A stretch of 10,000 nucleotides of DNA from Acropora yongei. Its lineage: Eukaryota; Cnidaria; Anthozoa; Scleractinia; Acroporidae. The translations under genes and the position numbers were made by a program. Location of the stretch: positions 3,662,636-3,672,635 of the forward strand of contig BLFN01000473.1 of NCBI GenBank assembly GCA_014634225.1, given 5' to 3'. Under the pieces are notes generated by a model that worked only from the letters and a program-made list of their open reading frames with translations, was not told where the DNA came from and searched no databases. Of this stretch, positions 119 through 3,100 are shown in pieces (the first letter of the stretch is position 1; each line of letters opens with the position of its first letter).

Positions 119-3100
119 GTGTAATCAATGATATTTGCACAAATCTTGCTTTTTGCTGACTGGAAAAATATTTCACTTCCTCCCAACTAGAAATCAGAGT
201 CCAGACTTTGTTGTAATCGATTGATCTTGTATGTAAACTTTGAAACTTTTTAGCCTTGTCAGTCACTTGGTGAATCCAAAACAGCTCTTCAAAAGAAGTG
301 CATTTTATTTTGTGTCACCCTTGAGGGACTTAGCTTCACCGTGAGTCACATGCACTGCAATGCACTTGCCTTTAAAGATGTACTTCCTTCTCTTTTGTAT
401 TGGTGTGTGAAGAGGAGAGCCTAAACACTTAAAATTTATAATACTCTTCCACTAATGGAATGATCTTTTACTGTTTACAGAACAAGGCAAGGCCAAAGCA
501 AAAACTGTGTCACCAGATTCTCTTGAATGCAAGGAGTTGGAAAAGCAAACACTTGAAATAATTGAGCTTCAAAGAGAAGCAACACCTGATGAAAATAAAC
601 ACAAAATGACATGGAAAGAGTGGTTTAAAAATCCAGATTTCTACAAGGTGACAGGCTGTGTGAAACATTTTGTTGTATGCTGTTTTTTAGTAATTAAAGC
701 TAATGCAAAAAAATCACAGTTAATGAATGGCCAAACTTGGCTGCAAACTGCCAACATCTTAAATACAATAATAGCAAATGCTATACATTATGAAATAGCC
801 AGTTCCTATTTTTAAACAAAGTAGGAGCAATTTGCAAATGGTTACCATATATAAACACCTGCAGATAAGCCACACCCTGAATTTAGCTGCTCAAATTGTG
901 GAAACATGGTTTTTTTGATAGAAATTTAAAAAAATCCAAAGTCAAGACTTTGGAAGTCATCTTCACCCACTGTTCATTGAACTATTAACATTGGAACATG
1001 AACAGAAAAATATTAAATATTTCAAAGTCCTATACCCACAATTTTAGCACTTATTGTAATGAACATCGTTTCTACCAGCTTTGACATAATGATTGATCTT
1101 TTTCTGGTATTTGTTGTGAGGAACGTCTTCATTCAACAAAGTTTTTTGATAGCTCTTTGCATTAAAACAAGAACAAAATTTTTTGGGAAAAAAGGTGCAG
1201 CTTATCTGCGGGTGTTTTCGGGAAAAATAGGGGACAATGACTTGTCAAGGAATCATTGGGTAATTTGCAATGTTTGACTGTTTGTATGGCTATCTTGCTT
1301 CTATTTTATCTTGATAATTATAATTTTATGTGTGCACATTTTTCTCCCTCAATTGCAATTTTAGCTTGTATTTATTTACATGGCTACACAAAATATAGTG
1401 AATCTAAGCCAGTCATATTTTCCGATGTACTTGACAGAGACACTTCATTTCCAAAAGGTAATCTTGTTTGTTATCATTTTCTTTATAATATATGTTCTTA
1501 TTTTGTGTTCTTACAAGAGTGTATGATCTGTTAAAATTATTGATGTCCTGGTGGAATATTGCCAATAAACACTCCATTTTCCTCCATCAAGTTGATCTTG
1601 TCCATATAAGCTTGGTGGGTTCTCTTCATAGTATCCTCTACTTGGTATCTGTTTCTAGCACCAAATCTCCTTTTCTGTAATGAAAGATATTGATGGCCAT
1701 AAAAATATAAGAACATGCAGACATTATAGTTGTCCTAGATGATGCAGTCTGCCAGTGGACTTTTATTTTAGCCATGCGCTGCTGTTTCTTGTCTTTAAGC
1801 CCTCTTAATTTGTATGTTCCTGTGGCTGTAAGATTAAGGACTGTTGAAGTTGTTGGCTCATGTGCATGCCACAGTGGTCTCTCATAGTTCCTTCTTTGTA
1901 GAAGCTGAATAAAATGATACCTAACAAATATTACTAATAGGGAGTTATCATTATTTCCTTAACAGGAAGCCATTGCTTACTTTCCTCTTATGATCCTCAT
2001 CAGTGGTATTTTGATGAGTACTGGAATCAAACATTTAAACAGATACTTTTCCAACAAGGTTGGTTTATTACGGTTCCTTAGCTTTTTGTTTGAAATACTG
2101 CAATATTGTTTTGGGGAATCTTTGTTTACAAATTTTGCTATATTAGTATTAGGTCATCATACAGTTCACCGGTTACCCTCAGCACTGAATATTGAAATTG
2201 CATCCTACAATCTTCTATGTCTGAGGGTATACCTGCTAATCCTGGTGCAAGTTTACGTAATTTACGTTCATTTGCAGTTTGGCCATTCACCAGTTTTTGA
2301 TTTGTTGACACCCCACCAATATCAGACCAGGAAGTCTGAAATATGAGATGCCGTTTTAACTTTTGAGGCCATTTTGTGCAATAAGTTAGAAAAACCCATG
2401 TGCTAATGGGGTTAACTGAAAAAATCGAGTTCAGTAAAGATTCCCCCTTTGTTGTGCAAGCAAAGGGTGTAGTTCTTCTTTTAAAGGAAACGTATTGAGC
2501 CTTTCCTTTATCTTCGTCCCAACAATGCGAATGAGAAGGCAATGTCACAAACACAAGCTATTTTTTGCAGGTATTGTTCTGTGCTGGTACAATAATTGTG
2601 GTTGGTTGTTCCGCATGGTTTTATTTTACGCCTCTGTCACATAGAGATATGATTTATGCTCCAACAATAATCATGGGCTGTGGTAACTCCATCATGATAG
2701 TGACGTCATTGGCCATGGTCGCGGATATCATCGGTGATGATAAAGTAGGTGGCATGTTTAGCTGCAGCTGTTGTGTAGGAAGCACTATGTGATTTAGTCA
2801 TAGTAGAGGCTCTTAAATATGTACCTCTAGTATAATATTTTCATTTGGCAACGTTTTTTGAACAACATATTTTAGACCAGTGAACAACACTTAGACCAAA
2901 AGTTCAGTGACATACTAGTAAAATGCAGTAACTACAAACGTGGAAGCCCCCCTTAAACATACTGTACTTGGTACTGAACAGAAAAAAACAAACCAGAAAA
3001 GAATTTGGAGACACAACAGAATAGATTCATTTCTATTTCAACCAATGGAAAGTTCTAAAGCCACTAGGTGGTCACCAGTTAAAACAATGGGTGTGTTTTT

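Follow-up and report, generated by a model that had tools for sequence, protein, structure and literature searches.

Candidate minus-strand exons interleaved with those of an MFS transporter gene in Acropora yongei, possibly encoding a GCP5-like N-terminal domain

In the stony coral Acropora yongei, the introns near the 3' end of a predicted transporter gene contain several open segments on the opposite strand. The question raised by this locus is whether the exons of two genes alternate there on opposite strands, or whether ordinary intronic DNA has only taken on the appearance of exons. The analysis covers a stretch of 10,000 nucleotides (positions 3,662,636 to 3,672,635 of contig BLFN01000473.1, GenBank assembly GCA_014634225.1), which is referred to here as the window and which comes from an assembly of 405 Mb in 365 contigs. 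Seven plus-strand exons of the window make up the 3' part of a gene for an MFS transporter (Table 1). The last six of these were joined and matched both MFS_1 (E 1.2e-15) and MFS_2 (E 2e-15) of Pfam over the cut-off. We also observed what may be a second MFS-like gene arranged in tandem with the transporter, with a first exon at 7624-8153 of the plus strand that matches MFS_2 below the cut-off (E 0.005). A sequence-only reading of the window had proposed that three minus-strand segments with good acceptors form the 3' end of a gene whose exons interleave with those of the transporter, and it had allowed that this gene might be a decayed fragment.

Table 1. Coordinates of the transporter exons and of the candidate minus-strand features within the window; a slash marks the exon/intron boundary at donors.
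Feature	Positions	Strand	Details
MFS transporter exon	1-118	+	cut by window edge
MFS transporter exon	481-647	+	
MFS transporter exon	1365-1457	+	adjoins antisense segment 3
MFS transporter exon	1966-2058	+	between antisense segments
MFS transporter exon	2571-2744	+	adjoins antisense segment 1
MFS transporter exon	3183-3292	+	
MFS transporter exon	3821-3968	+	
Segment 1, candidate antisense exon	2177..2335	-	53 codons, phase 0; acceptor ATTTCAG, donor AGG/GTAACC
Segment 2 of the sequence-only reading	1761..1904	-	144 nt; acceptor TTATTCAG, donor AAA/GTCCAC poor; codon score ~zero
Segment 3, candidate antisense exon	1537..1674	-	45 codons + TAA; acceptor CATTACAG
Proposed antisense intron, segment 1 to segment 3	1675..2176	-	502 nt; contains transporter exon 1966-2058
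AATAAA, possible poly(A) signal	1371..1376	-	~160 nt past TAA, inside transporter exon 1365-1457
Speculative first exon, MSAHSPQ	6387..6407	-	ATG ... CAG/GTGACA, 7 codons, in phase with segment 1; post hoc

Inspection of the three segments (159, 144, and 138 nt) revealed that all are open and in phase 0, and that together they join to 146 residues followed by a TAA. Their arrangement relative to the transporter is also as had been described. Segment 1 sits within the transporter intron 2059-2570, segments 2 and 3 are both located within the single intron 1458-1965, and one transporter exon falls between segments 1 and 2. The predicted exons consequently alternate by strand without any overlap, the plus-strand exon 1966-2058 lying between 2335-2177 and 1674-1537 of the minus strand, and this alternation would hold under either splice model, with or without segment 2. 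The splice sites were scored with approximate metazoan tables that had not been trained on this species. By these scores, the acceptors of segments 1, 2, and 3 are among the best 4.0, 4.3, and 1.2%, respectively, of the 576 AGs on the minus strand, in agreement with their earlier description as good, and the donor of segment 1 at 2176 is likewise good (top 5.6% of 533 minus-strand GTs). The donor of segment 2 at 1760 had been called poor and indeed is, as 64% of the 533 GTs score at least as high. Segment 3 contains four GTs upstream of its TAA, all of which are poor donors (scores of -9.4 to -1.5). A fair donor, CTT/GTAAGA (0.9 bits), is present at 1514 of the minus strand, ~22 nt past this TAA, and the frame of a related sequence introduced below (P0002) stays open beyond that position. 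The AATAAA hexamer in Table 1 is unremarkable by chance, since the first 2,600 bases contain four of them, and the speculative first exon is one of three first-exon candidates between 2395 and 7600 having a donor of at least 2 bits. The seven residues of this candidate exon show a faint likeness to the N-termini of GCP5, a protein considered below.

Open segments with plausible splice sites can also be assembled from random sequence, and the chain was compared with such assemblies. For this comparison, the best three-segment terminal chain was selected by its splice score plus codon log-odds, both in the window and in 100 dinucleotide shuffles. The reported three-segment chain scored 21.7 bits and the last three exons of the transporter 52.3 bits, while the best chains from the 100 shuffles had a mean of 19.2, a median of 18.6, a 90% point of 24.7, and a maximum of 30.2. 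All six of the other minus-strand chains listed outscored the reported one (22.5 to 27.1 bits), and the 22.5-bit chain among them is segment 1 joined straight to segment 3. As a gene model, the three-segment join has an ordinary score and is not exceptional. Such a chain was found in 0 of 100 dinucleotide shuffles when the cut-offs were just fitted to the find, and these post hoc cut-offs leave the result with little weight. The 139-residue frame around segment 1 extends 74 codons into the supposed intron, and equally long frames occurred in 47 of 200 shuffles.

Codon usage was examined with a table trained only on the seven transporter-type exons. The reported frame was the best of the six in all three segments, conditional on its being stop-free. 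Among stop-free non-coding windows, 8.8, 19, and 4.6% scored as high as segments 1, 2, and 3 singly, and 1.3% of 20,000 random triples equalled the summed score of the three; these percentages flatter the segments, which had been chosen for their protein-like look. The score per codon was +0.029, -0.011, and +0.071 inside segments 1, 2, and 3. In the parts of these open frames that directly precede the respective acceptors, it was -0.217, -0.231, and -0.307. Downstream of the donors, the values were +0.098 (12 codons) and -0.088 (40 codons), and the seven exons used for training themselves range from -0.064 to +0.191. The codon statistics start at the acceptors and in this way moderately back a minus-strand coding origin, which is the likelier interpretation for segments 1 and 3 and is doubtful for segment 2.

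Of 44 candidates from a protein database search, two proved to be relatives: P0001 (E 4.3e-25) and P0002 (E 5.5e-8). Both read straight through intron sequence and were for this reason taken to be frames of genomic contigs, and such read-through frames are no demonstration of splicing. P0001 comes from the same species or one very closely related to it. Leaving out its first residue, which is a start codon, P0001 differs from the window at 0 of 53 residues in segment 1 and at 3 of the remaining 85 of the frame (Fisher p 0.29). In P0002, 1 of 28 residues is changed in the opening part of segment 3, as are 2 of 14 preceding the acceptor. Judging from the protein letters of P0002, one of the latter two changes has turned the CAG at the end of the intron into a Glu codon, and therefore the acceptor would be GAG at best. 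The protein letters likewise imply three indels (5, 1, and 4 nt) that disrupt the frame over the final 17 codons of segment 3, and the frame of P0002 runs on beyond the site of the TAA. Since P0002 breaks the frame three times in this part, the protein end at the TAA is without conservation. The frame breaks and the changed acceptor codon are both pointing to decay. In the protein database, the open frame of segment 2 drew 2 candidates, and a longer model, searched among proteins of ~245-780 residues, drew 160; none of either set scored.

With its poor donor at 1760, segment 2 is probably not an exon, whereas a direct splice from 2176 to 1674 uses a good donor together with the best acceptor. 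This direct join keeps phase 0 and encodes 98 residues. Among 177,635 solved sequences, the 146-residue form had no match at E up to 10, and the 98-residue join had only two, both of them to N-terminal pieces of gamma-tubulin-complex proteins (GCPs): 6l81, which is GCP5 (E 0.32), and 6l82, a spindle pole body component (E 1.2). An E of 0.32 means nothing alone, because the reversed join, which served as a control, had a chance match at E 0.13 among the solved sequences, and a mis-joined 151-residue form matched alpha spectrin at E 0.32. In Smith-Waterman comparisons, the direct join scored 64 against human GCP5 and 57 against 6l82, which are 10 and 9 standard deviations over shuffles and were attained by 0 of 2000 shuffles in either case. 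When segment 2 was restored, these scores dropped to 39 and 43, respectively, and segment 2 alone scored at shuffle level. The alignment with human GCP5 pairs 55 residues of the join with 58, contains 15 identities and one 3-residue gap, and crosses the junction of segments 1 and 3 gap-free, in one register for both references. The gene that had been proposed would keep its interleaved geometry and lose segment 2, which has a poor donor, breaks the GCP5-like alignment when included, and is probably intronic.

The aligned pieces of human GCP5 and 6l82, the two references that match the direct join, had no mutual match by phmmer. When the GCP5-similar positions of the join were kept and the rest shuffled, the 6l82 score was reached in 15 of 5000 trials, and in 0 of 5000 when only the identities were kept. 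In the converse shuffle, with the 6l82-similar positions kept, the GCP5 score was reached in 0 of 5000, and that of Xenopus GCP5 in 248 and 292 of 5000. A profile designated A1, made from the N-terminal domains of two GCP5s and 6l82 without any window sequence, was run over 294 two-exon joins of the window passing modest splice cut-offs. The direct join came first with 23.7 bits, compared to 8.5 for the next join and 14.7 for the best unrelated solved sequence. The profile score of the join is inflated, because both reference sequences were recruited by the query, 6l82 having entered through its match to the query. A profile of vertebrate GCP5s only also placed this join first of the 294, weakly (10.8 bits, with 4.2 for the next and E 0.0054 over the 294 joins). 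The scores of the join against GCP5 orthologues are uneven, with 64 for human, 52 for 9g3z, and 35 for Xenopus, as in chance best hits, unlike the scores of 6l82, which are even (48, 44, and 46). The next, strongly conserved stretch of GCP5 (human 74-120, ..SWKRLTEEFL..SILSLLLCLSDSP..) did not rise above the shuffled level in the window, and no further GCP5 exons are supported within it. Because this continuation of the domain was not found in the window, we did not file the locus as a GCP5 gene. The resemblance is a lead backed by the conditional shuffles rather than proof, and we put its odds of being genuine at somewhat better than even. If it is, the segments would be 5' exons of an N-terminus and not 3' exons of an unnamed protein.

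In Pfam, no family matched the 146-residue join, while P0001, P0002, the direct join, and three of the window's open frames yielded only matches below the curated cut-offs (PP_kinase, HiaBD2, and zf-H2C2_5). Searches of the assembly with the DNA and with the 98-residue join returned only the locus itself, and pieces of human GCP5 and Pfam PF04130 returned nothing (PF04130 also nothing in 14 control genomes); an actin control came back empty as well, which leaves these results uninformative about copies elsewhere. The window has four Rfam matches at E up to 1, none of them in 1400-2600, and none of the listed repeats of at least 25 bases overlaps the segments. Farther along the window, at 4430-4570 and 4028-4118, there are two imperfect inverted repeats (49-nt arms, 82% complementary, and 25-nt arms, 88%), which look like short hairpin transposons and whose similarity to MIR7504 and other microRNA models falls far short of the gathering scores. 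Several copies of related inverted repeats around TTCTCGAAAGTCCCGAGAACTTT, at 4931-4956 and 9327-9599, are a probable dispersed repeat.

There is a substantial possibility, though one we would still call the weaker side of the wager, that the segments are nothing more than intronic DNA, open by accident and with splice-like sites singled out by an observant reader, the GCP5 likeness being a best-hit coincidence. This would account for a chain score that lies between the shuffle median and the 90% point and below the six other same-strand chains listed, for a segment 1 frame that runs 74 codons into the intron as frames of its length do in 47 of 200 shuffles, and for E values of the direct join (0.32 and 1.2) that resemble the chance-type values of the reversed and 151-residue forms (0.13 and 0.32). 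It is also consistent with the 146 residues having no Pfam match and the other forms tried having only matches below the cut-off. However, coincidence does not readily produce a codon signal that begins at the acceptors and is matched by only 1.3% of random triples, nor two references that fail to find each other and yet both align with this one join, in a single register over the junction. The absence of changes from segment 1 in P0001 (0 of 53, compared to 3 of 85 elsewhere) also argues against coincidence, albeit with a Fisher p of 0.29.

All three segments could instead be the decayed fragment of a real gene from some unknown family other than GCP5. The poor donor at 1760, the frame-breaking indels and altered acceptor codon of P0002, and the coding-like codon use of segments 1 and 3 are all in keeping with such a history. 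We nevertheless judge it improbable, since the codon score of segment 2 is close to zero and its open frame drew no relatives from the protein database, and no parent family appeared in Pfam, the protein database, or the solved structures. We regard it as highly unlikely that the segments have a role as antisense RNA without coding function, or as elements in the splicing or regulation of the transporter, with their frames being incidental. Their location in the transporter introns permits such a role and the coding interpretation is without proof, but 0 of the 4 Rfam matches of the window fall in 1400-2600, and codon periodicity would be unexpected for elements of this kind.

The reading we prefer, to which we assign a little less than an even chance (~45%), is that segments 1 and 3 are, or until recently were, coding exons of a gene on the minus strand that winds through the introns of the MFS transporter. 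They would be spliced directly from donor 2176 to acceptor 1674, with segment 2 belonging to the intron, and the stretch they encode would be most like the N-terminal helical domain by which GCP5-type proteins hold MOZART1 (MZT1). If intact, the transcript would begin somewhere right of segment 1, be spliced over transporter exons, and continue past the left edge of the window, and the encoded domain would be predicted to bind MZT1. If the protein ended at the TAA, its product would be the domain without the GRIP1/GRIP2 core. A short interleaved minus-strand gene for a stand-alone GCP5-type N-terminal domain of this sort, ending at the TAA at 1537, seems very unlikely. Because the frame of P0002 is broken and the TAA is not preceded by a good donor, a copy that has decayed or been truncated is at least as likely as a working gene.

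Opposite-strand overlap of genes with separate exons is well known in animals, and a paper on Pou5f1/Tcf19 reportedly describes the sharing of exons and introns in opposite directions. Like other overlapping pairs on opposite strands, the two genes at this locus would share a span and have their coding exons in each other's introns, whereas the antisense partner here is a predicted one. In a study of 13,484 human-mouse orthologue pairs, ~10% of genes overlap, mostly on different strands. Exons overlap across strands in just 51 of 615 such genes in human and 28 of 497 in mouse, and the overlaps are convergent (~50%), embedded (~29%), or divergent, with no separate rate for interleaving among these figures (PMC2335118). 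Interleaving at this locus would be one more case of opposite-strand overlap with the exons kept apart. Among the listed titles of papers on interleaved, nested, or overlapping genes, none names a transporter/GCP pair.

With respect to the candidate protein, the point of similarity with the MZT1-binding N-terminal domain of GCP5 (TUBGCP5; PDB 6l81, and 6l82) is an alignment that spans the segment 1/3 junction. Unlike GCP5, the join shares only the 15 identities with the human protein, and the aligned part is followed in the window by nothing GCP5-like and then by a TAA. In the assembly of the gamma-TuRC, an MZT1-GCP5 module is placed on the outer surface of GCP3(8) by one report (PMC8789826), and a cross-linking report on the human gamma-TuRC gives the MZT1 contacts as the termini of GCP2, GCP3, and GCP6, not GCP5 (PMC7280788). 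The poor donor at 1760 and the frame breaks in P0002 make the locus similar to a fragmentary intron-nested pseudogene as well, although, unlike a processed pseudogene copy, it has kept an intron-like gap with splice signals.

If the candidate exons are decayed or due to chance, the locus illustrates how easily phase-compatible open segments can mimic exons in AT-rich introns. If they are real, this is a gene that annotation may miss, with its exons hidden in the introns of a gene on the opposite strand, and the locus would be a test case for the transcription of two interleaved genes. Should a GCP5 gene have its 5' end here, it would be transcribed across a large part of the transporter gene.
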